Origin: Actinomycetota bacterium | Lineage (GTDB): Bacteria > Actinomycetota > Actinomycetes > Actinomycetales > Microbacteriaceae | Direction of reading: 5' to 3' | Assembly: GCA_020160915.1 (NCBI GenBank) | Contig: JAIUPK010000003.1 | Span: 186,001 to 250,000, forward strand | DNA length: 64,000 bases | Shown here: piece by piece, positions 37,149 to 61,027 of the stretch | How positions within the stretch are numbered: the stretch's first letter is position 1 | Layout: each line of letters starts with the position of its first letter | Notes under the pieces: generated by a model | Seen by the model: the letters and a program-made list of their open reading frames with translations, nothing else | Databases searched by the model: none | What the model was told of the DNA's origin: nothing | Made by a program: the position numbers and the translations under genes

Positions 37149-37187
37149 GACACCTCACTTCTCGCATGTGATCACCACCGGATGACG

Positions 37188-37571
37188 TCACGCGTCGGAC
37201 GCGACCGCGATGAGGTCCACCTCGACCAGCAGCGGCGACGGCAGCACGACCGTCACCGTGGTCCGCGCGGGATATGGTTCGGTGAAGTATTCCTTGTAGA
37301 TCTCGTTCATCTCCGCGAACTGCCCGGGGTCGGTGAGGAAGACTCGAGCCTGGATCACGTCGGAGAAGGTCGCACCCGCTGCACCGAGGGTCGCCCGCAG
37401 GTTCTCGAAGGTGCGCCGCAGCTGAGGGCCGAAGCCTTCGTCGACCGATCCGTCGAGACCGATGCCGCCCTGGCCCGCGCAGGCGATGAAGGACCCGCGA
37501 CGGCGGCTCTGCGAATAGGGCCCCAGCGGGCTGGGTGCCTCGGTCGTGCGTCCTACGATGTCGATTGTCAT
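37188..37571 (-). CDS. ridA: RidA/YjgF-family enamine-imine deaminase
   Basis: A 127-residue protein of the RidA family, which hydrolyses reactive enamines and imines released by PLP enzymes. Landmarks are PLGPYSQSRRRGSFIACAGQ, the TFENLRATLGAAGATFSDVIQARVFL block (in parts), and the active-site Arg in YPARTTVTVVLPSP. It fits well beside the SelA-like PLP enzyme two genes upstream, which would release such an intermediate. It overlaps the FAH-family gene by four bases (ATGA). Confidence 0.88.
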   Translation of the reverse strand: MTIDIVGRTTEAPSPLGPYSQSRRRGSFIACAGQGGIGLDGSVDEGFGPQLRRTFENLRATLGAAGATFSDVIQARVFLTDPGQFAEMNEIYKEYFTEPYPARTTVTVVLPSPLLVEVDLIAVASDA

Positions 37572-38434
37572 GCGATCTCCTTTACTGGGAACGGGTCTAC
37601 GGATTGCTCGATCTCTCCGAGCCCGTCGATGGTCATCCTTACGCGGTCGCCGGATGCTAGGTACGGGAAACGCCCCGATAGGGCGACCCCCTGCGGGGTG
37701 CCCGTGAGAATTACATCCCCGGGCTCGAGCATCATGACGCGGGCGAGCTCCATCATGATCTGTGCGACGGAGAACACCATGTCCGAAGTGCTCGACGCCT
37801 GACGCGGTTCACCATTGACCCAGGACCGCATGTCGAGTTTCTGCGGATCCTCGATCTCGTCGGCGGTCGCGATCCACGGACCGAGAGCGCACGAACCGGG
37901 GAAGCACTTTCCCTTGGACCACTGGCCACCGGAGCGATCGAGTTGCAGCCAGCGGTCGCTGATGTCGTCCGCGAGCACGTAGCCCGCAATGGCGCCCATG
38001 GCGGCGTGCGATGTGACCTCACCGTGGAGGGGTGCCCCGACGACGATCCCGAGCTCGACCTCCCAGTCGAGTTTGGACTTGACGTCGACGCGACGGATGG
38101 AATCGTTCGGGCCGACAACCGTATTGGACTTCTTGAAGAAGATCACGAGCTCCTCGGGAGGCAGAGCCCCGGACTCGGCAGCATGAGCAGCGAAGTTCAT
38201 ACCAATGCAGAGCACAGAGGGCGGACGCAGGATGGGCGCACCGACCCGCTCACCGTCGATCGCAGTTGGCGGTAGTTTCCCGCTGGCCAAGGCCGACCCC
38301 AGGCGCTCGATCCCGCCGGTTGCAAAGAAGTCCGCGTCGAAGTCGCGGGTCACCCCGCTCGCGTCGAACCACTGCTCGGCCGTGCCGACGACCGGGCGTT
38401 CAGCCCCCGCTTCACCCACTCTCATGAGCTTCAT
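37568..38434 (-). CDS. Fumarylacetoacetate hydrolase-family protein
   Basis: A 288-residue enzyme of the FAH superfamily (acylpyruvate hydrolase / 2-keto-acid hydratase type). Motifs are LCIGMNFAAHAAES, FFKKSNTVVGPND, LDWEVELGIVVG with the metal-binding Glu pair, IAGYVLADDISDR, KCFPGSCALGPWI and ILTGTPQGVALS. It differs from the longer FAH-family protein at 11110 and resembles the ureidoglycolate lyase / acylpyruvase branch. It is coupled on both sides by 4-base overlaps. It probably cleaves or hydrates a 2-keto acid formed by the PLP enzyme. Confidence 0.87.
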   Translation of the reverse strand: MKLMRVGEAGAERPVVGTAEQWFDASGVTRDFDADFFATGGIERLGSALASGKLPPTAIDGERVGAPILRPPSVLCIGMNFAAHAAESGALPPEELVIFFKKSNTVVGPNDSIRRVDVKSKLDWEVELGIVVGAPLHGEVTSHAAMGAIAGYVLADDISDRWLQLDRSGGQWSKGKCFPGSCALGPWIATADEIEDPQKLDMRSWVNGEPRQASSTSDMVFSVAQIMMELARVMMLEPGDVILTGTPQGVALSGRFPYLASGDRVRMTIDGLGEIEQSVDPFPVKEIA

Positions 38435-39624
38435 CGGATCTCTCCTCCGCTGGTCAATCCGCGATGTCCGGCCAAGTCGGCAAACGCTGCAGCCAAGCCC
38501 TCGGCGTCGCCGTCAATGAGGGCCATGGGGTGCACGACCAGCACACCACGCCAGGCGTCGGCTTCCTCAAGGTAGACGGGCACCTCTCGCGCAGCAAGCG
38601 CCTTCACGAAGGCGTCGACGTCGAGTCCCGCAGCGGCGACCTGAAGCTCGATCACGGGCACGCCGAGCACCGATGTCTCGTGCCAGACCGCGGGGATGGG
38701 ACTGTTGCCGAGCAGTCCGTGCAGCTTCTCGAGCTCGGCTATACCCGCGGTATCGCCCGCACCCGGTGCGGCGACGTAGCTTTCGACCGCAGCGACCAGG
38801 CCTGCGATCTGCTCACGACCGACTTTCATAGCCCTGCCAACTCCGTGGCGAGGCGGCGTAATGCCGTCCCCGCCCCGAACCCACGTGGATTCGCGCTCGT
38901 CCATGTCCTGATGTTGCGCACCGATGAGTGCGATGAACTCGGTGCGACCGCACAGGATTCCGGTCGCTTGTGGACCCCGAAAGTTCTTCCCTCCACTCAG
39001 GGCCACGAGGGCTGCGCCGTCCTTGAGCCATTGGCGGAGGTTCTCGAGTGGCGGAGCGTACAGGGCACCGTCGATGAGCACGGGCACGCCCTTGCTCGAT
39101 GCCAGTTCGCAGATCGCCGCGAGGCTCGGGTGGTTCCCGGCACGGCCGGGACGGTAGAGCACAGCTGCGGTCTGCCCGTCGATTGCTCGTTCGATCTCTC
39201 CGAGGTGTGTCGACGTGGGGTACCCGACGACAACGAGCTCGGCGCCAGCGAACTCGACGGCCCTGTCATACGGGTCACGCTGAGCGGCAAGCACGATCAC
39301 CTTGTGCGGTGCCGCCTCAATGCGCGGAAGCGAGTCAGCACGGGCCGGGTCAGTGCCTGAGATGATTGCCGCCGTGGCCAGGGTGAGCGCCGCCGCGGCT
39401 CCCGACGTGACGTACGCCGCCTCCACGTCAAGCAGGCGAGCGATCTCTTCTCCCGCACGATCCTCCAGGTCACCCATGTGAACTGCATAGGCGGTTGCCT
39501 GGGCCATGGCATCCAGAACAGCAGGATGGAGAGGCAAGCCACCCAATCTGGTCGCCGGCCCTACCCCGTTGATGGCTCGCCGAACACCGATGCGTTCGAA
39601 TAGGGATGGGGTCTTCTCGGTCAT
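38431..39624 (-). CDS. SelA-like PLP-dependent enzyme
   Basis: A 397-residue fold-type I PLP enzyme related to SelA and to the DgaE-like ammonia-lyase group. It opens with FERIGVRRAINGVGPATRLGG, then VTSGAAAALTLATAAI for phosphate binding, VLIDGALYAPP for the ring Asp, and ALSGGKNFRGPQATGILCG with the Schiff-base Lys. A selenium role is unlikely because no other selenocysteine genes are visible. In other bacteria this family is found next to amidohydrolases of the EF_0837 type, as here, and is proposed to eliminate ammonia from an amino acid or amino-sugar acid. Confidence 0.83.
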   Translation of the reverse strand: MTEKTPSLFERIGVRRAINGVGPATRLGGLPLHPAVLDAMAQATAYAVHMGDLEDRAGEEIARLLDVEAAYVTSGAAAALTLATAAIISGTDPARADSLPRIEAAPHKVIVLAAQRDPYDRAVEFAGAELVVVGYPTSTHLGEIERAIDGQTAAVLYRPGRAGNHPSLAAICELASSKGVPVLIDGALYAPPLENLRQWLKDGAALVALSGGKNFRGPQATGILCGRTEFIALIGAQHQDMDERESTWVRGGDGITPPRHGVGRAMKVGREQIAGLVAAVESYVAAPGAGDTAGIAELEKLHGLLGNSPIPAVWHETSVLGVPVIELQVAAAGLDVDAFVKALAAREVPVYLEEADAWRGVLVVHPMALIDGDAEGLAAAFADLAGHRGLTSGGEIR

Positions 39625-40706
39625 GAGGCCTCCACGGAGTCCAGGGCGCGTACAGCGGTGTCCATCGGATGATCGGGTGCGAACCTGATCAGCACCTTGG
39701 CTGGCACATCAAGGGTTCCAGCCAATCGCGTGAATGCCGTGTCTGCTTCTTCCGGCCCGACAACCTGACTCACGAGCAGATCCAGCACTGGGTCTCCTTG
39801 CGCTACCCAGCTCGCCGCTTCGACGAAGATCTTGGCTGGGTAGGTGAAGCTTCCGACGAGGGTTCTCTCGTCTGTGCTGATGCGATAGGCCGAAATGGCG
39901 ACGTTGGGCTGAGCCATTCCCACGAGGCACACCCGGCCGCCGAGCACCGTCGACTGCAGGGCATCCGCGATCGTCGCGCTCGCCCCCACCGCGTCGATGG
40001 CGACGTCGACACCGATGTCATCGGTGAGTGCACGCACCGCGTCGGGCACGGCGCCCTCACCGGGGTCGATGACCTCTGCACCGAGCGCTGCGCATACGCC
40101 GCGGCGAGCCTCGTTCGGCTCAGACACGATCACTCGTGCCGCGCCAGCTCGTTTCGCGGCGAGAACGCACGACTGGCCGATCGGTCCGCCACCGACGACA
40201 AGCACGACCTGTCCGGGCGAAACCTCGACGCGGCGAACGGCGTGCACGGCCACGGCAAGCGGCTCGATGAGCGCTCCGTGCAGCGGATTGGGCAGTTCGG
40301 GCAGCACGACGACGTTGGTCGCAGGCACGGCAAAGCGCTCGGCGAGGGCCGACACGATCGCAGGGTCGACGCCCAGAACGCGGCGCTGTGGGTCGTGTTG
40401 CTCCCGGCCCTCGAACTCCTGCACCTCAGCTGCGGGAACGATGACCGGGTTCACGGTCGCAAGCGCGCCGACGGGGTAACGGTTGCTGTCAACCTCCGAC
40501 CCCACGGCCCAGATCCGCCCGACGGTCTCGTGTCCCATCACCTGCCCGGGGAACCGGCGGCCGTTCTCGCCGGTGTAGCCGTGGATGTCTGAGCCGCAGA
40601 TTCCTGTGGCGATGGTCGCGATGATGATCTCCGAAGGCTCCACGACGGGATCCTCGCGCTCGACGACGCTCAGCTTTCCGATTTCAACAAGTGTCAACGC
40701 ACGCAC
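39621..40706 (-). CDS. Zinc-type alcohol dehydrogenase (MDR superfamily)
   Basis: A 361-residue medium-chain dehydrogenase. The catalytic zinc site is GICGSDIHGYTGENG, then GHETVGRIWAVG. The NAD-binding loop is VLVVGGGPIGQSCVLAAKR. Unlike most members, the four-cysteine structural zinc lobe is missing: the region reads AEVQEFEGREQHDPQRRVLG. It resembles threonine or sorbitol dehydrogenases and should oxidise a secondary alcohol. It overlaps the SelA-like gene by four bases. Confidence 0.87.
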   Translation of the reverse strand: MRALTLVEIGKLSVVEREDPVVEPSEIIIATIATGICGSDIHGYTGENGRRFPGQVMGHETVGRIWAVGSEVDSNRYPVGALATVNPVIVPAAEVQEFEGREQHDPQRRVLGVDPAIVSALAERFAVPATNVVVLPELPNPLHGALIEPLAVAVHAVRRVEVSPGQVVLVVGGGPIGQSCVLAAKRAGAARVIVSEPNEARRGVCAALGAEVIDPGEGAVPDAVRALTDDIGVDVAIDAVGASATIADALQSTVLGGRVCLVGMAQPNVAISAYRISTDERTLVGSFTYPAKIFVEAASWVAQGDPVLDLLVSQVVGPEEADTAFTRLAGTLDVPAKVLIRFAPDHPMDTAVRALDSVEAS

Positions 40707-40764
40707 GTCATCGTTCCTCTCGAGGGGTAGTTCAGCAATTCATGTATGCGGGGGTCGCGTCGAC

Positions 40765-41898
40765 TCATGACGGTCTCCCGTCGTGCACGAGTCGTCCGCG
40801 CGAGAAGGTCATGACGCACCGAAGTCGCTCGCTTCCGGCGACAGTTCCGCCGAAACCGTCACCGAAATCGATCGCCTCCTGAACCCGCTCCAGAACCGCG
40901 ACATCCGCCGCCGCGCCCGGTGCGAGAGTTCCTACGTCAAGGCCGATCGCTCTGGCTGGTGCGGACGAGGCGCGACGCAGCACGTCGGGAAGGGGCATTC
41001 CGAGCGCGAGGAATTTGGAGAGCACGGTGGTCAGGTCGACGACCGAGTCGCGCGAGTACGCGTGGATGTCCGTGCTGATGGTGTCCGGTGGCTCACCGTC
41101 GGCGAGCATTCGTCTGGCCACGTCGAGACTGAATCCGGACATGCCGTGCCCCACATCCAGAAGCACCCCGCGCTCTCGCGCTGCGCGAACAGACGTGCGC
41201 AGACCACTGATCTCGTCCACGATGCGGTTGTCCGGCCACCCCGTGAAGGCATGGGTGATTATGTCGCCCGAACGCAGCGAGTCGGCGATCTCGTCGATGC
41301 CCGCGGGCGCCGGACCCAAGTGCACCATGAGCGGCAAGCCCACCTGATCTGCGACCCGCCGTGCCGAGGCGAGGGCGGCGCTCGTGTGCTCGCCCCCGAC
41401 ATTGCCTGACGCGCGTACCTTCACTCCGACCACGAAGTCGCGATTGGCCTCGATCGCCTCGATCGCCGCACTCTCGGAGACGTACCACGGCGCGAGCAGC
41501 TCCCCGCCGAGCATGATGCTTGTCGTGCCGATCGAGGAGATGTTGAGCATCGCGCGCACACGTACGCTCGAGCGATCGATGGTTGATGCCCGAAACGCCC
41601 CGATCAGGTGAGCGCCGGCGCTTCCTGCATCCAGGACGGTCGTCGTTCCCGATCCGAACGCCACCTCGTCGGCGGAGACTCCCAGATCCTGGCCAGCGAA
41701 GACGTGGGTGTGCAGGTCGACGAGCCCCGGGGTGACGACGCGACCGCTCACGTCGATCACAAGGTCGCCGGGTGCCTCTCGTTGCTCGGAGATCGTTCCG
41801 CCTTCGATGCGGAGATCGCGTACGACACCGTCCGATCCGTCGCCCTCGAACACCGTTCCTCCGCGCAAGACGACAGCCTCGTGATGCGTGTCAGTCAT
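40765..41898 (-). CDS. Amidohydrolase/deacetylase of the EF_0837 type
   Basis: A 377-residue TIM-barrel metallohydrolase. The HxH motif is in TPGLVDLHTHVFAGQDLG, with VGVKVRASGN supplying the carbamylated Lys, PLMVHLGPAP and ITHAFTGWPDN the two His residues, and ISTDIHAYS the Asp. The pattern matches the amidohydrolase/deacetylase group that acts on N-acetyl amino acids or acyl-amino compounds. The ATG at 41898 overlaps the upstream gene by eight bases. In context it would remove an acyl group before the PLP enzyme acts. Confidence 0.85.
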   Translation of the reverse strand: MTDTHHEAVVLRGGTVFEGDGSDGVVRDLRIEGGTISEQREAPGDLVIDVSGRVVTPGLVDLHTHVFAGQDLGVSADEVAFGSGTTTVLDAGSAGAHLIGAFRASTIDRSSVRVRAMLNISSIGTTSIMLGGELLAPWYVSESAAIEAIEANRDFVVGVKVRASGNVGGEHTSAALASARRVADQVGLPLMVHLGPAPAGIDEIADSLRSGDIITHAFTGWPDNRIVDEISGLRTSVRAARERGVLLDVGHGMSGFSLDVARRMLADGEPPDTISTDIHAYSRDSVVDLTTVLSKFLALGMPLPDVLRRASSAPARAIGLDVGTLAPGAAADVAVLERVQEAIDFGDGFGGTVAGSERLRCVMTFSRGRLVHDGRPS

Positions 41899-42679
41899 GG
41901 CGTTCACCCCCGAAGTCTCGAAGGTTGCCGGGATCATGGATCGCAACCACGGTGTCGAAGCGGCCCTGGAATGAGATCATTGCGGCCCGAGCGTCTGCGA
42001 TGCTCTCGGCGATGCCGATGGGCCGCCCTGTCTCGAGGTTGCGCTTGAGGAATGCGGTCTCGAGCACACCGACGACGCCATCGGAGGTATTCACGATCAC
42101 GGCGCCCGATCCGGGATGATGCCCTCCAGTTACCTCGAACTCGATACCGGGAACAATGGACGCCGATGACTCGACGAGGTGCAACCGGCCCTCGATCGCG
42201 AGCGTACGCAGGCTGGCCCACGACGAGGTACTGAAATAGAACTCGGGTGCGGGGTGACCGGTACCTCCCGACAGGAACTCCTCAACGCCCGCTCGGGCTA
42301 GATAGAAGTGAGCGTTCGGCAACAGATCGGCGTCGATGCCGCCCGAGTGGTACGTCACCGTCTGAGTGATCGCCACGAACGATACGTCCTCGCCGCGAAT
42401 GCCCGCCTCGTCCAGGATCTGTGGCAACGTGCGCACGGAACGGAATCCGACATCGTCGCCGAATGCCCGATTGGTCTCGCCGAGGGCGTCCGCTTCGGTG
42501 GCATTGAGCGGAAGACCAGCGTCGATGAGTCCTATCGTCGTGCCGTCACTGACCACCCACACGTAGAAGTACAGGTCGTGGAGCGACAGGTCATGCTCAC
42601 CGAACATCACGGCCCACCCGGGCGCGGGCAAGATAGCGGCGAGTTCAGCCCTGATGACGTACCGGTCACTCATCAGCAT
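41891..42679 (-). CDS. Metallo-beta-lactamase-fold protein with degenerate metal site
   Basis: A 262-residue protein with the layout of the N-acyl-homoserine-lactonase-like branch: LHDLYFYVWVVSDGTTIGLIDAG, LDEAGIRGEDVSFVAIT and EFEVTGGHHPGSGAVIVN. The normal THxHxDHxGG motif is replaced by TQTVTYHSGG, so three of four ligands are lost, while the later GGHHPG is kept. It may bind one metal, work with altered chemistry, or be a non-catalytic partner. It overlaps both neighbours (8 and 14 bases). ATG codons at 42679 and 42673 are both possible starts. Confidence 0.78.
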   Translation of the reverse strand: MLMSDRYVIRAELAAILPAPGWAVMFGEHDLSLHDLYFYVWVVSDGTTIGLIDAGLPLNATEADALGETNRAFGDDVGFRSVRTLPQILDEAGIRGEDVSFVAITQTVTYHSGGIDADLLPNAHFYLARAGVEEFLSGGTGHPAPEFYFSTSSWASLRTLAIEGRLHLVESSASIVPGIEFEVTGGHHPGSGAVIVNTSDGVVGVLETAFLKRNLETGRPIGIAESIADARAAMISFQGRFDTVVAIHDPGNLRDFGGERHD

Positions 42680-43640
42680 CTACAGTCTCGACCCAGCGAC
42701 GCTCGGCAGCAGAACGCCCAGCGAGCTCGGCTAGCTGAACGGCCCGACGCCCTGCCCTGATGGTTGGCTGGCCCCGATCTTCACCGCGCACTCCCGCCAC
42801 GAAGTCAACAAGCTCGGTCGACAGCCAGTCATCGTCGAACGACTCCTCGGACGTGCCGCTCGGGGTGGAGACCAGAAGCCGCCTCGACTCATCGAGTTCG
42901 ATCGATCCCAGCGTTCCTTGAATGGTGAAAGCGACGCGCGGCGGAGCGGCATAGCCGACTCCGAAGGACAGGGCGGAGGACCCGACGATGCCCGCACCGA
43001 ACTGCACGTTCAGCGTGGCGGCAAGATCGGTGTCACGATCGGCCGGTATGAAGGTCAGAGCTGACACGGCTGTGACGGCCTGTCCGAGTACCCATTCCCA
43101 GCGATCGAAGACGTGATGGCTTTGCAGACGCACAGTGCCGCCACCAGCTTCGGCGCTCCAGTACCACTCCGGGGTGCTTTCGTAGGCCTCGATCACGTTG
43201 TCTGACACGAAATACGGAGCACCGATTCCGCCGCTTCTGACGATGTCGCGCGCGCGGCGCCACTCTCCGCGGAATCGATAACTGAAGCCGACCATCCAGT
43301 ACCGTCCGGACTTCATCGCGGCGTCCACCACCTCGTCGGCTTCACGAAGGGTCACCGTCAGGGGCTTGTCGACCAGCACGTGGAGCCCTCGGCTTGCGGC
43401 CTCGAGACACGCGCGGTGGTGTGCCGCGTTGGGCAGGCCAATGTACACGGCGTCAATTCCCTCCGCGTCGGCCAGTGACCGAAAGGGCGCGGCGCCAACG
43501 GCCGACGCGACCACTGCCGCACGCTCGTCATTGGTATCAATGACCGCCGTGACAGCCGCGCCAGGAATTCCCGCGGCTGCGCGGGCGACACGCTCGCCCA
43601 TGACCCCCGCACCCCACACCGCAAGACGCAGATCACTCAT
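42666..43640 (-). CDS. Gfo/Idh/MocA-family oxidoreductase
   Basis: A 324-residue NAD(P)-dependent dehydrogenase. The Rossmann motif is LRLAVWGAGVMGERVARAA, with Asp after strand 2 (VIDTNDERA), the GLPNAAHH block and the EKP variant DKP in HVLVDKPLTV. The C-terminal domain includes VGFSYRFRGEWRRARD. It would oxidise a hydroxyl or amine of the imported compound. It overlaps the ABC ATPase gene by eight bases, tying metabolism to import. Confidence 0.86.
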   Translation of the reverse strand: MSDLRLAVWGAGVMGERVARAAAGIPGAAVTAVIDTNDERAAVVASAVGAAPFRSLADAEGIDAVYIGLPNAAHHRACLEAASRGLHVLVDKPLTVTLREADEVVDAAMKSGRYWMVGFSYRFRGEWRRARDIVRSGGIGAPYFVSDNVIEAYESTPEWYWSAEAGGGTVRLQSHHVFDRWEWVLGQAVTAVSALTFIPADRDTDLAATLNVQFGAGIVGSSALSFGVGYAAPPRVAFTIQGTLGSIELDESRRLLVSTPSGTSEESFDDDWLSTELVDFVAGVRGEDRGQPTIRAGRRAVQLAELAGRSAAERRWVETVDADE

Positions 43641-44487
43641 CGCCAGCTCCTCCCGTTCTGAACCCGCGGCGACTAAGGGCTCGGTCCGGATCCGGATAGG
43701 CAGCGAGCAGTGCTCGGGTGTACTCGTGCTCGGGTGCTCTCAGCACCTTCTGCGTGTCACCCGACTCGACGATACGACCGCTCTTCATCACGAGAAGCCG
43801 GTCTGCCAGTGCTGACAGCACGGGCAGCTGGTGCGACACGAAGATCACCGAGACACCGGTGAGATCACGCAAGTCAAGAAACAGGTTGACGATCTCGGTC
43901 TGCACCGACACGTCGAGTGCGCTCACTGCTTCGTCCGCAATCACGATCTGCGGGTTAGGGGCAAGAGCACGCGCAATGGCCACGCGTTGACGTTGACCCC
44001 CGCTCAAGTCGCGTGGCAGCCTCGCCGCATACGACGCGGGCAGACGCACTTTGTCGAGAAGCTCCGCAACGAATCGCGGATCACGCGCACCCTCGATGCC
44101 GTGAGCTACGCCGGCTTCCGTGATCGCGGCCCCAATCTGCAGACGCGGGTTGAGAGAGGAGTAGGGGTCCTGGAACACCACTTGCAGGCTCTTCCGCGCC
44201 GCACGAAGGGCCGAACCCCTGAGTGACATGAGGTTGACGCCGCCCAGCACCACCTCGCCTGCATCGGCCTCGATCAAGCGGGCAACACACTTGACCGTTG
44301 TCGACTTACCGCTTCCCGACTCTCCGGCGATGCCGATGATCTCGCCTTCGCCCAGATCGAACGAGACATCGTTGACGGCAACGAGGTCAGCCGGGCGGGG
44401 TCGCCCGGGGAGGTGGAACCCGCGGTGGCGATAGATCTTCGTCAGCCCGCTCACCGAGAGCACGGGACTGTTGTCACTCACCGTCAC
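43633..44487 (-). CDS. Peptide/nickel-type ABC importer ATPase (OppF/DppF-like)
   Basis: A 284-residue cytoplasmic ATPase of the oligopeptide importer family. Walker A is GESGSGKSTTVKC, signature LSGGQRQRVAIARA, Walker B VIADEAVSALD, where the usual DEP is DEA. The Q-loop region FQDPYSSLNPRLQIG and the C-terminal helical tail (EHEYTRALLAAYP) are typical of OppF. It forms the importer with the next four genes and overlaps the OppD-like gene by four bases. Confidence 0.92.
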   Translation of the reverse strand: MTVSDNSPVLSVSGLTKIYRHRGFHLPGRPRPADLVAVNDVSFDLGEGEIIGIAGESGSGKSTTVKCVARLIEADAGEVVLGGVNLMSLRGSALRAARKSLQVVFQDPYSSLNPRLQIGAAITEAGVAHGIEGARDPRFVAELLDKVRLPASYAARLPRDLSGGQRQRVAIARALAPNPQIVIADEAVSALDVSVQTEIVNLFLDLRDLTGVSVIFVSHQLPVLSALADRLLVMKSGRIVESGDTQKVLRAPEHEYTRALLAAYPDPDRALSRRGFRTGGAGDE

Positions 44488-45476
44488 TCACCTCCGAAAG
44501 GGCACGCACTGGTGTGAGCCGAGGCCACGGGCAAGAGGGTCATCGATACGTCTTCGCACTCCGGTCGGGCCAACGCACACCGCGGGGCGAACGGGCATCC
44601 ACTCGCATACGGCGTCGTTCCTAGCGGTGGGCCTGGAATCGTCGGCCTGCGGTATCCCCGTTCGGGAACAGCGAGAGTGGGCACCGACGCGATGAGGGCT
44701 TTGGTGTACGGATGCTTCGGACGCAGGTAGACCTCTTCGACTGGCCCCGACTCAACGATGAATCCGCCGTACATCACAGCAACGTCATCACACATTTCGG
44801 CTATGACGCCGAAATCGTGCGACACCAACAGAATCGAGGTGCCGTCGACATCTCTGATTCGCCGCAACAGCTCGAGGATCTGCGCCTGAGTCGTTGTATC
44901 CAGGGCCGTCGTCGGTTCGTCGGCAATGAGCAGGCTGGGCCTGGCCGCCATGGCAATCGCAAGCATGACGCGCTGACGCATTCCGCCGCTCAGCTCGTGA
45001 GGATACATCCTGAGTTTCGCGGCAGGATTGGGAAGCTCGACTTCCTCAAGCAAGGAGACTGCGCGGCGCTCGGCATCCTCCTTCGAGAGGTTGAGCGCGT
45101 TGCGGATCGCCTCGATCATCTGCGAGCCGATTCGTCGGGTGGGATTGAGGGAGGAGAACGGATCCTGGAAGACCATGCCGATCTCGGACGAACGGAATGC
45201 GAGCACCTCGCTCTTGCTCATTGCGAGTATGTCGCGACCGTCGAAGATCACGCTTCCCGACAGCACATGGCCGCCATCGGGCAGCAGTCGCATGACGGCG
45301 CGACAGGTCAGACTCTTGCCCGACCCCGACTCCCCCACGAGCCCCAGGATTCTCCCACGACCGATGCTGAGGCTCAGGCCGTGCACAATCGGACTGGCCT
45401 CGCCCGGCTTGGCACCAAAGCCAATGCGAAGGTCACTGATCTGAAGCAGCTCATCGTCGCGCACGTGCTCGCTCAC
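44484..45476 (-). CDS. Peptide/nickel-type ABC importer ATPase (OppD/DppD-like)
   Basis: A 330-residue ATPase. Walker A is GESGSGKSLTCRAVM, signature LSGGMRQRVMLAIAM, Walker B LIADEPTTALD. The C-terminal extension carries the Cys-rich GCPFAPRC...C...C pattern that binds an Fe-S cluster in OppD/DppD proteins (cysteines near residues 287, 293, 301 and 322). I use the GTG at 45476, which overlaps the upstream permease stop (GTGA). The frame is open for 33 more codons that lie inside that permease gene. Confidence 0.92.
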   Translation of the reverse strand: MSEHVRDDELLQISDLRIGFGAKPGEASPIVHGLSLSIGRGRILGLVGESGSGKSLTCRAVMRLLPDGGHVLSGSVIFDGRDILAMSKSEVLAFRSSEIGMVFQDPFSSLNPTRRIGSQMIEAIRNALNLSKEDAERRAVSLLEEVELPNPAAKLRMYPHELSGGMRQRVMLAIAMAARPSLLIADEPTTALDTTTQAQILELLRRIRDVDGTSILLVSHDFGVIAEMCDDVAVMYGGFIVESGPVEEVYLRPKHPYTKALIASVPTLAVPERGYRRPTIPGPPLGTTPYASGCPFAPRCALARPECEDVSMTLLPVASAHTSACPFGGE

Positions 45477-46309
45477 CGCTTGGCCTTGCTTCCGGTCGAG
45501 AAACCGTCGTCGATCATTCCGACACCCACTCCGAGAGCGATGAGCACCAACGCTGGGAGGGTGGATATCCACCATGCCGACAGCAGGAAGGGCTGACCCC
45601 CCGCAATGATCGACCCGAGATCGGCAACTGGCGGCTGAGTGCCGAAGCCCAAGTAGGACATCGCCGCGAGCACGACCATCGCCGCGACGACATCCATCGT
45701 CGCGAAGGTCAGGCTCGGACGAATCACGTTGGGGATCACATGACGGAACAGGATGCGGGCGGGCGAGTAGCCGAGCGACTTGGTGGCCATGATGAACTCG
45801 TGTTCTCTCAGGGAGAGCACCTCTGCTCGAGCGAGTCGTGCATAGACCGCCCAGCCGACGACAACCATTCCCACGCCGACGCTGAAGGTCCCGACGCCGA
45901 GGATGACTACGGTCGCGAGCACAACCACGATGAAGGGAATCGCGATCGCGGTGTCGACGACGCGAGAAAGGAAGGCGTCAACCCAGCCTCCCGCGTACGC
46001 GACGAGGGATCCGATGATCGTGCCGATCACGACTGTCGCAATGGTGACCAGAACCCCGGCAAGCAGGGAGATCTGGGTGCCGACGAGGGTCCTCGTCAGA
46101 ACGTCCCGGCCCACGGAGTCCGTCCCCATCCAGTGCGCGAACGATGGAGGCTCGAGCGACCCGAGCACGTCGGGGGCGTTGGGTTCCCACGGAGAGAGGA
46201 TCGGGCCGACGAGCGCGGCCAGTACCACCACACCAACAATGGAGGCGCCGACTTTGGTCTCCGTCGACCACGTGCCTCCGAGACGAGAACGAAATTTGAT
46301 CTCAGCCAT
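45473..46309 (-). CDS. Peptide-type ABC importer permease (DppC-like)
   Basis: A 278-residue inner-membrane permease with about six helices. The family-specific outside segment GSLEPPSFAHWMGTDSVGRDVLTRTLVGTQISL (read in parts) and the EAA loop ATKSLGYSPARILFRHVIPN, which contacts the ATPases, are clear. The ATG at 46309 overlaps the DppB-like gene by eight bases. Substrates of this family range from peptides to nickel chelates, opines and glycosides, so the cargo here is not fixed. Confidence 0.92.
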   Translation of the reverse strand: MAEIKFRSRLGGTWSTETKVGASIVGVVVLAALVGPILSPWEPNAPDVLGSLEPPSFAHWMGTDSVGRDVLTRTLVGTQISLLAGVLVTIATVVIGTIIGSLVAYAGGWVDAFLSRVVDTAIAIPFIVVVLATVVILGVGTFSVGVGMVVVGWAVYARLARAEVLSLREHEFIMATKSLGYSPARILFRHVIPNVIRPSLTFATMDVVAAMVVLAAMSYLGFGTQPPVADLGSIIAGGQPFLLSAWWISTLPALVLIALGVGVGMIDDGFSTGSKAKR

Positions 46310-47249
46310 TTCTGATTGCGTTCCTGACTCGTGGGTCCAGCGCGGCCTGAAGAAGGTCGGCGACCAGACCGGCAACGATTACGACAGTGCCCGCAAGAAG
46401 TGCGATCGCCTGCACGACGGGGTAGTCGCGTCGCTCGACCGCCTGCACGAGCAGAGATCCAAGACCGGGGATGCTGAAGACCTGCTCGATCACGGCAGTG
46501 CCTCCGATGAGGAATCCGACGACGACCGCGACGATGGAGATCGTAGGGGTCACAGCATTTCGAAGTGCGTGCCGAGCGAGCACACGATTCTCCGAGTACC
46601 CACGCGCTCTGGCCGCCTCGATGTACTCGCTGTCGAGCACGCGCTTCATACTCGAACGCAGAGTGCGGAGCACAACTGCGACCAGGGATAGCGCAATGGC
46701 GATCGCGGGGAGTGTGAGCGTGCGGAACGCTCCTACCAGCCCTGGCTGATAACCCGAGACCGGAAACAATCCCCAGGCGATACCAAAGATGAGAGCGAGC
46801 ACGAGCCCGACCCAGAAGGCAGGCATCGCAAGAAGTGCCGTCGCGAGGATTCGCAGCGTGAAGTCGGCAACGGTTCCGCTGCGGACAGCCGCGAAGACGC
46901 CGAGCACTCCGCCGAAGATCACCGCGAGAAGGAGTCCGTAGGTGATGAGATAGGCGCTGGGCTCCATGCGCGAGGCGACGAGAGTCTGGATCGACTGGCC
47001 GAAGGTCACGGACTCGCCGAGGTCGCCAGTGACGATCCTCGTGAGGTACGTCCACAGTTGCGTGAGCATCGGTTCATTGAGGCCCAGTCGCTCTCGGACC
47101 GTCTCCACATACTCGGCCGGCACTCGCTCACCGAGCATGATCCTCACCGGGTCGCCCGGCACGGCCTGGAGAATCAGAAACACAACGATCACCAGGCCGA
47201 GCAGTTGGGCCAGACCGAGAAGAAGCCTCCGGAAGAGGTAGTTCAGCAC
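46302..47249 (-). CDS. Peptide-type ABC importer permease (DppB-like)
   Basis: A 315-residue permease beginning MLNYLFRRLLLGLAQLLGLV. It has the DppB features FLILQAVPGDPVRIMLG, LGLNEPMLTQLWTYL and ITYGLLLAVIFGGVLGV, and an EAA loop AARARGYSENRVLARHALRN. It is the second gene of the run, 52 bases after the binding-protein stop. It pairs with the DppC-like protein to form the channel. Confidence 0.93.
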   Translation of the reverse strand: MLNYLFRRLLLGLAQLLGLVIVVFLILQAVPGDPVRIMLGERVPAEYVETVRERLGLNEPMLTQLWTYLTRIVTGDLGESVTFGQSIQTLVASRMEPSAYLITYGLLLAVIFGGVLGVFAAVRSGTVADFTLRILATALLAMPAFWVGLVLALIFGIAWGLFPVSGYQPGLVGAFRTLTLPAIAIALSLVAVVLRTLRSSMKRVLDSEYIEAARARGYSENRVLARHALRNAVTPTISIVAVVVGFLIGGTAVIEQVFSIPGLGSLLVQAVERRDYPVVQAIALLAGTVVIVAGLVADLLQAALDPRVRNAIRNG

Positions 47250-47301
47250 GCTTACCTACCTCTTCCGGAGCTTGTCTTCGAACTTCACTATTCGGAGAAC
47301 C

Positions 47302-48894
47302 TTAGCCAGCGATCCAGGTCGTGGTGAAGGTGCTCTGTCCAATCGGGTTCGTGGTGAACCCGCATACCTCGTTGAGGTGTCCGTTCACGAGGGGCAGGTT
47401 GAGCACGTTGATGGCCGGCTGCGCCTCGAGCATCGCCGCCTGGATGGCTGGCCACTTGGCCGCGCGCTCGTCCTCGTCAGTGGTTCCCGTGAAGTCAAGA
47501 ACCATTGCCTCGACCGCGGGGTCGTTCCACCAGGTGAAGAACCCGTTCGTCCCACCCTGCACGCCATAGAACTCGGCGAACTCATCCGGGATCGGGACGT
47601 CGCTGGCCGCGAACGAGTAGGGCAGCATCATGTCGTAGGTGCCTCCCGTGAAGTTCTTGCTCAGCGTTGCCTGATCTTCGGGGAGCAGCTCGACAGTCGC
47701 ACCGAGCTCGGCCCAAGATGCCTGCAGCACTGCGGCCAGGCTTTCGAAGGCAGCGTTGCCGCTCGGGTACTCGAGCGTCGCCGTGAAGCCATCCGGGTAG
47801 GCGGAATCCGCGATGAGAGCCTTCGCCGCTTCGAGGTCGAACGGAGTCGGCGCAATCTCCGAGCCATCAGCATCGAATCGCAGGCGCGGAAGGATGCTGT
47901 TGGGAGACTCGCCCATGCCGAAGTAGATCTTCTCGTTGACAGCGTCGCGATCGATCGCGAGCGACAGCGCCTGACGCACGTTCTGATCGGCGAACGGCCC
48001 CTGCTGGTTGTTGAGCGACAGCAGGATCCATGACGGAATCGAGAACTCGTCGATCGTCAGCGACGCCTCGGACTGCAGCGCCTCCACCTGAGACCACGGC
48101 ACGTTGTCGACCATCTGAACATCCCCGGAGCGCAGGGCGAGCGTGCGGCTGTTGTCGTCAGTGACAAAGCGGAAAGCGACGCTGTCGAGCAGTGGTCCTG
48201 AGGCATCCCAATAGTTGTCGTTCTTCACGAAGCTGATCGATGAGCCCTTGACCCACTCGTCAACGACGAACGGGCCGCTTCCGATCGGAGCGTCGAAGAA
48301 CGAATCCCCCGCTGCCTCAGCTTCTTCCTGCGGAATGATTCCGGCGGTCACCATAGCAAGCGAGTAGAGGAAGCCACCGATGGGCTCGGTCATGTTGACC
48401 TGCACCGTGGAGTCGTCCACTACCGTCGTCGAGTCGTAGCCGCGCGCGAACGATGCCCACTGGCTCACGTCGGGGTTGGACCAGTTGTCGAGGGTGTACT
48501 TCACATCGGCTGCGGTGACCTGACGTCCATTGGAGAACTTTGCGCCCTCGCGAATGTGGAAGGTGTGGGTTAGGCCGTCGTCTGACGTGCTCCATTCGTC
48601 CGCGACACCGCCGACGAGATCCTGAGACTTTCCGGTCGGATCCATGCGAATGAGGGTCTCGAAGACCATGTTCAGGGCTTCGGTGTCACCGAAGCCGCCC
48701 GGAGTTGAGTAGGGGCTGAGCGAGAGCGTCTCGTTCTGCTTGGCGACGGTGATCGCTCCACCCGCTACGGGAGTTGATGTGCAGCGGCTATCGCTGGCAC
48801 CCGGCGTCGTGGGCTCTCCGCCAGCCGTACAGCCGACGAGGCCGATAGCTAGCGCAGCGCCCGCCGCGATCGAGATTGTTGAACGAAACTTCAC
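47302..48894 (-). CDS. ABC importer substrate-binding lipoprotein (family 5)
   Basis: A 530-residue lipoprotein that binds the imported compound outside the membrane. The signal peptide MKFRSTISIAAGAALAIGLV ends in a lipobox with Cys near residue 22, followed by a Gly/Thr/Pro linker. Family 5 (SBP_bac_5) motifs include WSTSDDGLTHTFHIREGAKF and VRQALSLAIDRDAV. The GTG start has AGGAGG four bases upstream. It is the first gene of the 14-gene run and follows a strong palindrome. Family members bind peptides, opines, sugars or nickel, so the ligand is open. Confidence 0.93.
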   Translation of the reverse strand: MKFRSTISIAAGAALAIGLVGCTAGGEPTTPGASDSRCTSTPVAGGAITVAKQNETLSLSPYSTPGGFGDTEALNMVFETLIRMDPTGKSQDLVGGVADEWSTSDDGLTHTFHIREGAKFSNGRQVTAADVKYTLDNWSNPDVSQWASFARGYDSTTVVDDSTVQVNMTEPIGGFLYSLAMVTAGIIPQEEAEAAGDSFFDAPIGSGPFVVDEWVKGSSISFVKNDNYWDASGPLLDSVAFRFVTDDNSRTLALRSGDVQMVDNVPWSQVEALQSEASLTIDEFSIPSWILLSLNNQQGPFADQNVRQALSLAIDRDAVNEKIYFGMGESPNSILPRLRFDADGSEIAPTPFDLEAAKALIADSAYPDGFTATLEYPSGNAAFESLAAVLQASWAELGATVELLPEDQATLSKNFTGGTYDMMLPYSFAASDVPIPDEFAEFYGVQGGTNGFFTWWNDPAVEAMVLDFTGTTDEDERAAKWPAIQAAMLEAQPAINVLNLPLVNGHLNEVCGFTTNPIGQSTFTTTWIAG

Positions 48895-55887: not shown

Positions 55888-55949
55888 GGTTTCGATACGC
55901 GGCTGCGCCGCTACAGGGTTTCGATACGCGGCTGCGCCGCTACTCAACC
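55888..55949. repeat. Tandem REP-like elements
   Basis: Two 27-base copies of GGTTTCGATACGCGG plus CTGCGCCGCTAC (55888-55914 and 55917-55943) stand two bases apart, and the second continues into TCAACC. Each can fold as a small hairpin. They separate the convergent whiB1 and pdtaS genes, and the second copy supplies the pdtaS stop codon. Related to 23405-23470. Confidence 0.8.
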
Positions 55950-57458
55950 AGCGGCCTGCGCTGACGCCTTCTTCATCCACGTCATCGGCACGTCGATCGT
56001 GACCTCGGTGCCGCTTCCCATGAGCGTGTGCCAGTCGATCGTTCCGCCCAACTCGCCCTGGATGAGGGTGCGCACGATCTGAGTTCCGAGCCCTGAGCCG
56101 ACCTTGCCCTCGGGCAATCCGACGCCGTTGTCGCGCACCTTCACGCTCAGCAGGTCGTCGGTGCGCTTGGCGATGATGTCGACCTTGCCGTCGGCGCGAC
56201 CCGCGAGACCGTGCTCGACGGCGTTGGTCACCAGCTCGGTCAGGGCGAGCGCGAGCGGCGTCGCGTACTCGCTCGGCAGGTGCCCGAAGCTTCCCGTCGA
56301 GGTCGGGTGCACCGTGGTGTTGTGACTCGAGGCGACCTCCGCGATGAGCTTCAGCACCCGGTCGAACACCACGTCGAAGTCGACGTTCTGGTTGAGGCCC
56401 TCGCTGAGGGTGTCGTGCACCACGGCGATGGCGGCGACGCGGCGCATGGCCTGGCCGAGCGCATCCCGGGCGACATCGCTGTGGGTGCGGCGGGCCTGGA
56501 TCCTGAGCAGGGATGCCACAGTCTGCAGGTTGTTCTTGACGCGATGGTGGATCTCGCGGATCGTGGCATCCTTCGTCAGGAGTTCGCGCTCCTGGTGGCG
56601 GATCTCCGTGGCATCCCGACACAGCACGATCGCGCCGACGCGCTCCCCGCGGTTTCGGATCGGGATGGTGCGCAGCGACACCGTGACCCCGCGCGACTCG
56701 ATGTCGGTGCGCCACGGCGCCCGGCCGGTGACCACGAGCGGCAGCGACTCGTCGACCGTGAGCCGGCCGTGCAGCAGGCTCGTGGTCACCTCGGCGAGCG
56801 ACTCCCCCTCGAGCTCACCGGCGAAGCCCATGCGGTTGAACGCCGACAGCGCGTTGGGGCTCGCGAACGTCACCATGCCGTCGACGTCGAGCCTGATCAG
56901 ACCATCGGATGCCCGGGGTGCCCCACGACGCGGACCACTCGGCGCACCCAGATCGGGAAAGTCCCCGGAGGCGATCATCGCGAACAGGTCGTTCGCGCAC
57001 TCGTTGAAGGTGAGCTCCTGGCGACTCGGGGTGCGCGCCTCGCTCAGGTTGGTGTGCCGGGTGATCACCGCGATCGGAGTCTTAGTCGTCGCGCTGCCGC
57101 TAGGGCTCAGCCTGCGCAGCACCGGTACGGCGCGCACGCGCGTGGGCGTCTCCTCGTACCAGTCGGGGGTGGAGGTGTCGACGATTCGGGATGTCTCGAA
57201 GGCTTCGGTGACCTGCGCCTTCCACTCGGGCTTGATGGCCTGCCCGACGAAGTCGCGGTAGAACAAGGTCGCTGAGCTCGACGGGCGCGCATGGGAGACG
57301 GCCACGAAACCGCCCTCGGCGCTCGGCACCCACAGCACGATGTCGGCGAAGGCGAGGTCGGCCAGCAACTGCCAGTCGCCCACCAGCAGGTGCAGCCATT
57401 CGATGTCGGCCTCGCTCGAACGCCCCTGGGCCTGAACGAGATCACTGAGGGTCGACAC
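55944..57458 (-). CDS. pdtaS: Sensor histidine kinase PdtaS-like
   Basis: A 504-residue soluble kinase. An N-terminal GAF-like domain (about 15-145) and a PAS domain (about 190-300) precede the HisKA_2 dimer domain, with the phospho-His in REIHHRVKNNLQTVASLLRI, and a C-terminal ATPase domain (LALTELVTNAVEH, VRDNGVGLPEG, GLGTQIV). This matches PdtaS, which phosphorylates the antiterminator PdtaR. GTG start at 57458. The ancestral neighbour upstream appears to have been cpaE on the same strand; an islet now separates them. Confidence 0.92.
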   Translation of the reverse strand: MSTLSDLVQAQGRSSEADIEWLHLLVGDWQLLADLAFADIVLWVPSAEGGFVAVSHARPSSSATLFYRDFVGQAIKPEWKAQVTEAFETSRIVDTSTPDWYEETPTRVRAVPVLRRLSPSGSATTKTPIAVITRHTNLSEARTPSRQELTFNECANDLFAMIASGDFPDLGAPSGPRRGAPRASDGLIRLDVDGMVTFASPNALSAFNRMGFAGELEGESLAEVTTSLLHGRLTVDESLPLVVTGRAPWRTDIESRGVTVSLRTIPIRNRGERVGAIVLCRDATEIRHQERELLTKDATIREIHHRVKNNLQTVASLLRIQARRTHSDVARDALGQAMRRVAAIAVVHDTLSEGLNQNVDFDVVFDRVLKLIAEVASSHNTTVHPTSTGSFGHLPSEYATPLALALTELVTNAVEHGLAGRADGKVDIIAKRTDDLLSVKVRDNGVGLPEGKVGSGLGTQIVRTLIQGELGGTIDWHTLMGSGTEVTIDVPMTWMKKASAQAAG

Positions 57459-57466
57459 GCGTTCAA

Positions 57467-57525
57467 GGCTAGCGCCCTAGCGACGCCGTCGCCCCCGCGC
57501 GGGCTCCGCGACGGGCTCGAGCCGC
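57467..57525. repeat. Direct repeat bounding the islet, left copy
   Basis: 59 bases beginning GGCTAGCGCCCTAGCG, matching 59193-59251 at 55 of 59 positions. It encodes the last residues (ending PARGRRRR) and stop of the unknown membrane protein gene on the minus strand, copying the end of cpaE. Confidence 0.85.
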
Positions 57526-59096
57526 GCAGGATCCTGCACGGTTCCATCCCACCCAACCTGTGGGGGCAACTCGGGCGGGGACAAGACCGGTCGTCCGTCA
57601 TCGAGCCACGGATCGGATTTTCCAGTCTTCGGCAACGATCGAGGAAGATTGGGTCGCTCGATTCCCTCCTTGAAACGAACGATGAGTTCGTTGTTGTCGG
57701 TACCCGAGGCATCCTTCATCGCAAGGTTGGCGAAGACTTCAGCCTGACGTTCGGATCCCATATGGAGCGTGTGGTGCTTGCACCAGATGAGGAGGTCAAC
57801 GGCCGATTCCGCTTGGACAGGTAGTCCCGCCTGAGCCAGGACGCGCGCAGCAGCAGCCAATGCCCACAGCGATTCACTGGCGCCGTACGGGGGTATCGCC
57901 TTGAAATCACGCGAGATATGCGCAATCGCATTCAGCGCGAGATCTATCGCATCGGTGAGATCCGCACGTGATGGACGATATCTCCCGGGACTGTCTCTTT
58001 GCGGTACGCCCGCAAGGGAAGTGATGAACCACGCCAACTGATGCTGAGCTGCCTGACGCTGTACGTCGAGTCCCTTCGTGGAGGTCTCAGTGCTTCTAGG
58101 AATCCGCCGGACGTAGTGGATCATCAGACCTGCTAGTGCCAAACGATCGCGAGAGATCCTCTGTTCGACCAGTGGCAATGAGGTATCGCGGCTTCCTGGC
58201 CGCGCCTTCGTCGCCGGAGCGATCCACCACGCCCACAGACGGGCGCGACCCGGTTTCCACTGCCGCGGGTCGGCACTCTGCGCGATCCAGGTCATTCGGT
58301 ACTCCTCGGCGACCCTCTCGAGGAGCACACCTATCAGTTGGCCGAACCTCTGATGGTTGGCTTGCAGCAACATCTCGTGAATCGGCATCAGAGGGTCGCG
58401 GAGTCCAAAGTTCTTGCGATTGCTGTTGATCGAGAATGAATGAATGGGGTCTTCCTTCGACGCCGGTTCACGAAATCGAAAGGAGATGAGTCCCCATTCC
58501 ACGGCGTCGTGGGGCCGAATCTTCCGGGCAAATCGCCGCGCGACGGTAACCGGGTCGAGATTGGAAAGCAGCGTAAGGCCAAGAGCGAGGGCAGTGAGGG
58601 CGAGAAAGACGACAGCGGTCGCCGCACATCCAGCCGCGAGGCGAGAAGGGTCATGAAGGATGGGCTGACCGCCCCACAGCACCGGAAATGTCCAGGCAGG
58701 GCAGTCAACGGCAACCGTCGGATCGCAGGTCTTCGAGGCGAGAGCAACTAAGCCCGCAACCACAGCGATCATGGTGCTGATGACGATCGGTAGGTATCGG
58801 GAAACCCTGTAGATCTCAGTAATGCCGTGCTGAGCGATTCCCACCACCCTGAGCTGGGCAGTCAGGAAGAAGATGGTCGTGGTGAGTCCGCCAAGGGTCG
58901 CCGCGGAACTGATCGCCACTGCCGCTAGCTGCGGAGTGTGGTCGACCGGTATGCCTTGCCACCCGATCGTCACCATCGTGGGTAGGAGGACGGCAGCGGC
59001 GAGCCACGGGATCAGCCCGACTACACCCGCCCCCGTCGAGAGTCTCCTCGCCTTCAAGTCGTAGGCCGCGAGGCGTTGACGTTTCACTATCACCAA
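57477..59096 (-). CDS. Membrane protein of unknown function carried by a small islet
   Basis: A 539-residue protein. Four N-terminal membrane helices (about residues 23-48, 56-82, 101-121 and 150-180; for example LAAVAISSAATLGGLTTTIF) are followed by a 350-residue soluble part rich in helices (EMLLQANHQRFGQLIGVLLE, AESAVDLLIWCKHHTL). The helix pattern loosely recalls DUF2254 membrane proteins, but no firm family is seen. Its last residues, LEPVAEPARGRRRR, repeat the end of CpaE because of the flanking duplication. Base composition is less GC-rich than the neighbours, consistent with transfer. It is the only gene of the islet. Confidence 0.75.
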   Translation of the reverse strand: MVIVKRQRLAAYDLKARRLSTGAGVVGLIPWLAAAVLLPTMVTIGWQGIPVDHTPQLAAVAISSAATLGGLTTTIFFLTAQLRVVGIAQHGITEIYRVSRYLPIVISTMIAVVAGLVALASKTCDPTVAVDCPAWTFPVLWGGQPILHDPSRLAAGCAATAVVFLALTALALGLTLLSNLDPVTVARRFARKIRPHDAVEWGLISFRFREPASKEDPIHSFSINSNRKNFGLRDPLMPIHEMLLQANHQRFGQLIGVLLERVAEEYRMTWIAQSADPRQWKPGRARLWAWWIAPATKARPGSRDTSLPLVEQRISRDRLALAGLMIHYVRRIPRSTETSTKGLDVQRQAAQHQLAWFITSLAGVPQRDSPGRYRPSRADLTDAIDLALNAIAHISRDFKAIPPYGASESLWALAAAARVLAQAGLPVQAESAVDLLIWCKHHTLHMGSERQAEVFANLAMKDASGTDNNELIVRFKEGIERPNLPRSLPKTGKSDPWLDDGRPVLSPPELPPQVGWDGTVQDPARLEPVAEPARGRRRR

Positions 59097-59192
59097 CCTC
59101 CACCCTGGCCGATGGGTTTCGGCGAAAGCAGTCTAGTGATTCAGTGAGTGCTGCTCATAACCATAGGACACGTATCCCGAAGCGTCGCAATT

Positions 59193-59251
59193 GGCTAGCG
59201 CCCTAGCGGCGCCGTCGCCCCCGCGCGGGCTCGGCGACGGGGGCGAGCCGC
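59193..59251. repeat. Direct repeat bounding the islet, right copy
   Basis: The 3' end of cpaE, including its TAG stop, identical to 57467-57525 except for four bases. The two copies are 1,726 bases apart and define the insertion. Confidence 0.85.
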
Positions 59252-60405
59252 AGCGCGACCAGGTCGGCGATCGCGCGACGGGCGCCCGACCGGGGCGACA
59301 CGTCGAGCAGAGTGCGGCCGCTGAGCACCGCCCCGTCGACCGCGTTCTGGTCATGCGGCACGAGCACGGGGTCGTCGATGCCGCCGAACCGCGCGAGCGT
59401 CTGGCGCACCTGCGCCGCGGGCCCCAGCCCGATCGCGGATGCCCGCACCCGGTTCATGACGACGTCGACGCGCCCGGCGCCACTGACCTCCAGCAGCTCG
59501 ACGTGAGCGCGCAGAAAGCGGGACATCCCCACCGGGTCGGCCGAACCAACGGCGACCACCCGGTCGGCCTCGCGCAACGCGGCGACCGTCGCGCCGTTGC
59601 GCCGCGGGGCGAAGAGGTCGCTCGAAATCTCCTCGTCGTTCTCCAGGCTCGACGCCATGTCGATCACCGTGTAGTCGACCCACTCGCGGCATCGCTGGAT
59701 GACTCCCGTGACCCGTTCCGCCGAGAGCTCGGGCCAGCGCCGGGGCGCACCGATCCCGGTCAGCACCCTGAAGCTCGATGCGCCCTGGTAGACGTCGCTC
59801 ACGCGGTCCAGTTCCTCGGGGGTGAGGGTGTCGCTGCTGGCGAGGCGACAGGCGGCCGCGAACCCGGGAGCCTCATCCAGCAGACCGAGTGTCGGTGCGA
59901 CCGAGGCGCCGTGGGTATCGACGTCGGCAAGCGCGACGCGGTGGCCGAGCGCCGCCAGTTCGCTCGCGATGCCGATGGCGAGAGTCGTGCGGCCGGGGGC
60001 GCCCGACGGTCCCCAGACGGCGATGACCTGACCCCGTGTGACAGCCGGCGTGGTGACGGCGGCGGGGCCGCGCGAGCCGCCGAGCATGAGTTCGATCGTC
60101 GGCCAGTCGGCCGTGGCATCCGTCGTCTCATACAGTCCGAGGGATGCCGCGTGCCGCCGGCCCATCTCGTCGGCGACGAGCGCGACCACCCGCACCCCCA
60201 GATCGTCGCACGCGGCGAGCACCCGGGGCGTCAGGTACTGCGGGCTGGCAGACACGACTGCCGCACCGGGGCGCAGAGCTCGCACCACCACCTCGAGCTC
60301 CTGCGCGCTGCCGGAGCTCGCGAGCACCTCGTGACCGTAACGGTTCGCGTCGGAGCGCAGCCGCGCCTCGTGGTCGGCGGGCAGCCCTAGTACGAGCGAT
60401 ACCAC
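59203..60405 (-). CDS. CpaE/TadZ-like ParA-family ATPase
   Basis: A 400-residue protein with an N-terminal receiver-like domain (LRPGAAVVSASPQYLTPRV) and a C-terminal ParA/MinD ATPase. The P-loop reads VWGPSGAPGRTTLAIGIA, a deviant Walker A in which the usual Lys is Arg, as in several TadZ proteins. ALADVDTHGASVAPTLGLLD and YTVIDMASSL follow. TadZ/CpaE proteins place Flp-pilus or other machines at the cell pole. GTG start at 60405, one base after the SAF gene's stop. No other pilus genes are visible here, so the client is unknown. Confidence 0.83.
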   Translation of the reverse strand: MVSLVLGLPADHEARLRSDANRYGHEVLASSGSAQELEVVVRALRPGAAVVSASPQYLTPRVLAACDDLGVRVVALVADEMGRRHAASLGLYETTDATADWPTIELMLGGSRGPAAVTTPAVTRGQVIAVWGPSGAPGRTTLAIGIASELAALGHRVALADVDTHGASVAPTLGLLDEAPGFAAACRLASSDTLTPEELDRVSDVYQGASSFRVLTGIGAPRRWPELSAERVTGVIQRCREWVDYTVIDMASSLENDEEISSDLFAPRRNGATVAALREADRVVAVGSADPVGMSRFLRAHVELLEVSGAGRVDVVMNRVRASAIGLGPAAQVRQTLARFGGIDDPVLVPHDQNAVDGAVLSGRTLLDVSPRSGARRAIADLVALRLAPVAEPARGRRRR

Positions 60406-60406
60406 C

Positions 60407-61027
60407 TCAGCCGCCGAGCGGGATCGAGGCGGGCACGATCGACAGCGCCGCATCGTTGGCGACGGCCGCGAGCACGGCGGCGATGCGGATGCGCGGAACG
60501 AGCACCTCGATGCCGGTCACTCCCCCGCCTGTGACGATCGTGCGGGTCTCCACCAGCCGCACGACGAGCGCACCGGTGACGACCACCCCGGGTTCTCCGA
60601 AGCCGCCGTCGACGGCCTGCGCCGCCCAGACATCCACCGAAGCTCCGGGCTCCACGGATGCCGCAAGCGCCCCCTCCACGCTGAGCACAAGCGGCGCGAG
60701 CCGCTCGCCGTCGACCTCACCCACCGCGTCGACGGGGATCAGCTCGCCCGCTCCGATCGCCCGGGTCACCACGACCCCCTCAGCCGGCACATCGCCGGGC
60801 GCGAGATAGCGGTCGGCCGACGAGTCGAGGCGCACGCTGCGCACCTCGAGGTCGGACTCGCCAACCCGATCACCCGGGGCCAGCGCCGCCGGCGCCGCGA
60901 GCACGGTGATGCTGTCGTCGGCGGCCGACACGATCGCCAGCACCCCGGCGACGGAGCCCGCCACCAGCAGCACGCCGATGAGCAGGCGGGGGTCGAGCAG
61001 GAACGCTCGGGCGGGGCTGCGGGACAT
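60407..61027 (-). CDS. SAF-domain (CpaB-like) membrane protein
   Basis: A 206-residue protein with one N-terminal membrane helix (LLIGVLLVAGSVAGVLAIV) and a SAF domain (ALAPGDRVGESDLEVRSV, VPAEGVVVTRAIGAGELI), as in CpaB/FlgA-type assembly proteins. The remainder ends in a beta-rich part (ASVDVWAAQAVDGG). It is directly followed by the CpaE/TadZ gene and should act outside the membrane in the same process. Confidence 0.83.
   Translation of the reverse strand: MSRSPARAFLLDPRLLIGVLLVAGSVAGVLAIVSAADDSITVLAAPAALAPGDRVGESDLEVRSVRLDSSADRYLAPGDVPAEGVVVTRAIGAGELIPVDAVGEVDGERLAPLVLSVEGALAASVEPGASVDVWAAQAVDGGFGEPGVVVTGALVVRLVETRTIVTGGGVTGIEVLVPRIRIAAVLAAVANDAALSIVPASIPLGG

Follow-up and report, generated by a model that had tools for sequence, protein, structure and literature searches.

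Judged by gene order in its relatives, the window (the whole stretch of 64,000 nt analysed here) carries an insertion between cpaE and pdtaS, which were ancestrally a pair, because cpaE adjoins pdtaS in 22 of the 25 junctions that were readable within the genus. We put a probability of roughly 60% on the reading that recombination without site specificity captured one foreign gene between the two and, in doing so, doubled 59 nt of the target. The insert is real, lineage-specific, and ordinary in kind, and nothing marks it as a new mobile element.

The repeat pair and the inserted segment

The genes, repeat copies, insert, and promoter box at the junction are all given on the minus strand. The upstream host gene (59203-60453) is a cpaE-like gene for a MinD/ParA-type ATPase (CbiA Pfam match, 7.1e-6), the name cpaE being that given in the first-pass annotation; the downstream host gene (55944-57458) is pdtaS, encoding a sensor histidine kinase (GAF_PdtaS Pfam match, 4.1e-46). 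The last codons and stop of cpaE lie within one copy of a 59-nt direct repeat (59193-59251), and the other copy (57467-57525) precedes pdtaS; the 55/59 identity between them, given in the first-pass annotation, was reproduced. The 1,726 bases that had been placed between the copies are in fact their start-to-start spacing, and strictly between them are the 1,667 nt of the inserted segment (57526-59192), which has no counterpart at 22 of the 25 readable genus junctions. As the first-pass annotation had it, the segment holds one gene, a single 539-aa ORF (the cargo gene, 57477-59096) whose last ~15 codons and stop are supplied by the pdtaS-side repeat, such that the cargo and cpaE ORFs share the C-terminal end VAEPARGRRRR. 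Its estimate that removal of one repeat and the insert would leave cpaE about 18 bases from pdtaS likewise agrees with a stop at 57477 and a start at 57458.

The suspected lower GC content was borne out: the DNA between the repeats is 60% GC vs 68% for pdtaS and 73.5% for cpaE. Among the 54 window genes called by a simple script, cargo included, the cargo gene ranks last both in GC3 (0.68) and in its fit to the codon usage of the window. Elsewhere in the window, a run of genes at 35431-48894 has a GC3 of 0.72-0.85, lower than most of the window, and is possibly an acquired region.

The window holds no second pair of this kind. With 14-base exact seeds it yielded a single further direct repeat of at least 40 nt, a 42-nt pair at 76%, and a search of the host genome with the 59-nt repeat matched only two places at E <= 0.001 (E = 1.8e-19 for the second), with no third copy at that threshold. 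Similar repeats were also listed over 464 kb of contig C3, including the window, as pairs of at least 35 nt and at least 85% identity up to 12 kb apart. Two pairs with a spacing of 1.5-1.6 kb belong to neighbouring genes that, by inspection, are alike over their length; the others comprised a pair of 139 and 202 nt at a distance of 5.1 kb, a 38-nt pair at 8.7 kb, and a 37-nt pair at 4.7 kb, and the rest were spaced by 240 nt or less. The 37-nt pair resembles a set of short sequences of the type GGTTTCGATACGC...GCTACTCAACC, which recur on either strand at 55888-55943 of the window and at C3 positions 92556, 140692, 368134, and 390027 of the host genome (G000), the last being a tandem array of 60-nt units; they have the appearance of a dispersed palindromic element. 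One locus on the same contig (141523-143247) encodes two neighbouring secreted proteins with a near-identical C-terminal membrane anchor, alike over their length by inspection.

The first-pass annotation called the cargo product an unknown membrane protein. With three hydrophobic stretches in its first 180 residues it does look like one, most likely with an accessory role. It had no match in Pfam, NCBIfam, or PADLOC and a single PHROGs match, to a family whose function is not known (E 0.2); scans of genome_contigs and of viral contigs with two short peptide patterns each found nothing, and a structure model made from the one sequence (pLDDT 42) was too poor for a structure search. Scoring the best three to four candidates per genome, matches were obtained only in the host and G010 among 299 family genomes and only in the host among 396 order and 394 class genomes, samples that overlap. 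The G010 homologue, the only one found in the 26 other genus genomes, is at a different place from the cpaE-pdtaS junction, and its neighbour has a match in only 5 of 27 genomes; it may itself be an islet. This ORF of 692 aa extends further at the N-terminus than the cargo protein. Where the two can be compared, identity is 34-36%, and in the alignment the homologue stops about 30 residues short of the end of the cargo protein. It had no Pfam match at E 0.01, and a GNAT-like identity for its extra N-terminal part was dropped because Pfam did not bear it out.

An integrase or transposase had been reported absent from the insert, and we agree: its one substantial ORF lacks a Pfam match up to E 1, and no recombinase gene was found. 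A DNA transposon was ruled out because the ends lack inverted repeats; the best score between the last 60 nt of both ends, 5.0, was reached by 463 of 500 shuffles. A perfect 12-nt palindrome, GCAGGATCCTGC, occupies 57526-57537, the insert end adjoining the pdtaS-side repeat, and an imperfect one (10/12) lies at about 59165-59180, near the other end. Integron gene cassettes carry attC sites, formerly known as 59-base elements, with the cores GTTRRRY and RYYYAAC. The insert resembles them in that a 59-nt repeat follows its one gene, the equal length being a coincidence, but neither core is present on either strand in, or within 20 nt of, either repeat copy, and an integron cassette was thus ruled out.

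The cpaE-pdtaS junction in related genomes

Twenty-seven genomes of the genus, as grouped in the database and including the host, were compared. Two of them could not be read at the junction (in G018 the contig stops too soon, and the cpaE match of G020 is weak). The adjacent arrangement proposed as ancestral in the first-pass annotation is found in the 22 junctions without an insert, with a gap of 9 nt in 19, -17 nt in two, and 26 nt in one; the gene and both repeats are accordingly not a feature of all relatives. The cpaE ends at these junctions are too different to be counted as the same single repeat copy. Inserts are present in the remaining three genomes, namely the host, G021 (953 nt with an Arginase-family gene, E 1.2e-65), and G002 (1,551 nt with a DJ-1/PfpI gene and an IclR gene). 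The Arginase-family gene (locus L036, 1413-2354, in G021) has a match at E 1e-60 in one of 299 family genomes, G010 (locus L161).

Outside the genus, loci were chosen by best pdtaS score and are not a random draw. Twenty-four of 30 loci came from other genera: cpaE and pdtaS are adjacent (gap <100 nt) in 10, separated by 248 to 2,793 nt in 11, and three have no cpaE in the stretch. Ten further wider-family genomes comprised two adjacent pairs, one with 2,955 nt between the genes, and seven without cpaE. Something therefore lies between the two genes in 12 of the 24 readable wider-family junctions, which may reflect gain or loss. Nothing on this junction came up in the literature searches, several of which returned little or nothing.

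Different cargo at the same junction was thus encountered in two genus and 12 wider-family genomes, but the same repeats around such cargo, which the first-pass annotation had named as support, were not. At junctions with gaps >200 nt, the final 200 nt of cpaE together with 40 nt more were compared with as much as 240 nt of the sequence preceding pdtaS, using 100 shuffles each. The window scored 49 vs a shuffle maximum of 14.5. None of the inserts in the 14 other genomes (two genus and 12 wider-family, three of them present twice) had a comparable junction repeat, and 13 of the 14 scored below their own shuffle maximum. The one that did not, G002 (17.5 vs 13.5), owes its score to a 30-nt match that falls within the flanking coding sequences, about 200 nt in, and off the junction.

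The probable pdtaS promoter and the edge of the repeat

Leaderless actinobacterial genes carry a TANNNT box some 12 nt upstream of the start codon (PMC3160421). The hexamer TAGCCT (57466-57471), 13 nt before the start codon, is the probable -10 box of such a leaderless pdtaS promoter, and pdtaS fits the description, in that TANNNT precedes its start in all 49 genomes counted, by 12 nt in 37 and by 13 nt in 12, after five loci repeating a genome had been removed. At other distances from 6 to 60 nt before the start, the motif occurs in only 0-2 of the 49. What differs at pdtaS is that the box begins with the cpaE stop codon in 19 of the 25 readable genus genomes, those with the 9-nt gap.

In the host, the box occupies -13 to -8 before the pdtaS start, and the cpaE-type stop ends 5 nt upstream of it. 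The repeat spans -67 to -9, i.e., the promoter region minus the last base of the box, and its edge therefore falls within the box: the shared TAGCC is followed by T on the pdtaS side and by A on the cpaE side, where TANNNT is broken. The last base of the box is found only on the pdtaS side.

Possible routes of entry

Illegitimate recombination would, on the preferred reading, have brought the foreign gene into the junction while 59 nt of the target were doubled, for example by fill-in of a staggered break ahead of joining or through template switching by the polymerase. The cpaE-side copy would preserve the end of the cpaE protein; the pdtaS-side copy would preserve the promoter and, being in frame, give the cargo its last codons and stop. 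Because the cpaE end sits in the pdtaS promoter region, an insertion at the junction would be best tolerated with a copy on both sides, and we infer that selection kept the second copy, as the doubled bases would serve both genes. Capture of this kind is favoured by the insert-free junctions in the genus, by the conserved TANNNT box and the position of the repeat edge within it, by the rarity and atypical codon usage of the cargo, and by a Ku gene in the genome (one match), although the presence of Ku alone is no sign that it acted. The G021 arginase is a partial parallel: its similarity to its 80% G010 homologue is lost a few codons short of the end, and it is in those last codons that the pdtaS box lies. 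The G021 arginase gene may have taken its own TA box from pdtaS, although the G010 homologue has one too, 13 nt before its probable start.

Several points weigh the other way. The pre-insertion sequence was not seen because the genomes compared include no close sister (the best cpaE identity is 66%), and the joining step cannot be read; in our judgement, 59 nt is a long target duplication for end joining. Nor is a duplication needed in general, since the 14 other inserts lack a comparable one. The overlap in the host is between promoter region and coding end, not between stop and box, and because the stop lies 5 nt outside the box, we give less weight both to capture and to the broader idea that follows.

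Known illegitimate recombination events mostly come with deletions, whereas here a duplication is kept. Illegitimate recombination, including the homology-facilitated kind, is described as a source of small variable segments (PMC2884548; PMC3240628). The insert is like such segments in that it is short, varies from relative to relative, has no recombinase, and lies at a place where different genomes hold different segments; it is unlike them in that a 59-nt target duplication containing a probable promoter has been retained.

Since the cpaE end and the leaderless pdtaS promoter share bases in the genus (19 of 25, where the stop begins the box), the junction might act as a gene trap, in which no incoming gene persists unless the shared stretch has been doubled or rebuilt. 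Single genes would then have been captured repeatedly, each completed at its 3' end, stop included, by host promoter sequence (15 codons in the host, a few in G021). We regard this generalization as rather unlikely.

The best of the alternatives to capture, itself unlikely, is a RecA-dependent single crossover with a circle that carried the cpaE end and pdtaS promoter of the same or a near-identical strain. Such an event would leave precisely one additional copy of the shared segment, and 55/59 identity is compatible with a copy from a close strain, but the circle must already have borne the variable segment, and the cargo protein had no match in plasmid and phage records. A full copy of the repeat was also not found elsewhere in the genus genomes searched: among the best candidates (up to 34 per genome), partial matches of 25-44 nt occur in two of the other 26 genomes and none in 24.

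A further step down in probability is an element without its own integrase, in which a recombinase from elsewhere inserted a circle whose attachment site was a copy of the cpaE 3' end. Integrative elements with targets at the 3' ends of genes produce direct repeats that keep the target gene complete, and the insert is like them here, as cpaE keeps its end and the repeats enclose one cargo gene; the host genome has five Phage_integrase-family matches, and other genomes carry different genes at the same junction. It is unlike them in lacking both a recombinase and a conserved target, and in that the other junction inserts (0/14) are without such repeats. The 3' end of cpaE differs between species and would make a poor attachment site; because the repeat lies in this variable end and, among the candidates scored, is near-absent from the other 26 genus genomes, it seems unlike an attachment site, and with no more than partial matches in two of those genomes a conserved one was rejected. 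Entry as a site-specific mobile element, suggested in the first-pass annotation, is not upheld on these grounds, to which the absence of inverted ends and of integron core sites may be added.

Least probable is a two-step history, in which 59 nt at the end of cpaE were first duplicated in tandem and a foreign gene arrived later at the joint between the copies. This gives the same final structure but requires two events at one joint, and a bare tandem duplication was not seen before pdtaS in the genus genomes compared, none of which is a close relative.

Single-gene insertions without a recombinase seldom reveal their route of entry. The present case is a caution that a direct repeat at the 3' end of a gene need not be an attachment site. 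Because the duplicated segment comprises the pdtaS promoter region and the cpaE end, there may be another reason for its retention: a doubled stretch in which a probable promoter overlaps the end of the neighbouring gene would provide a selective reason for a direct repeat.
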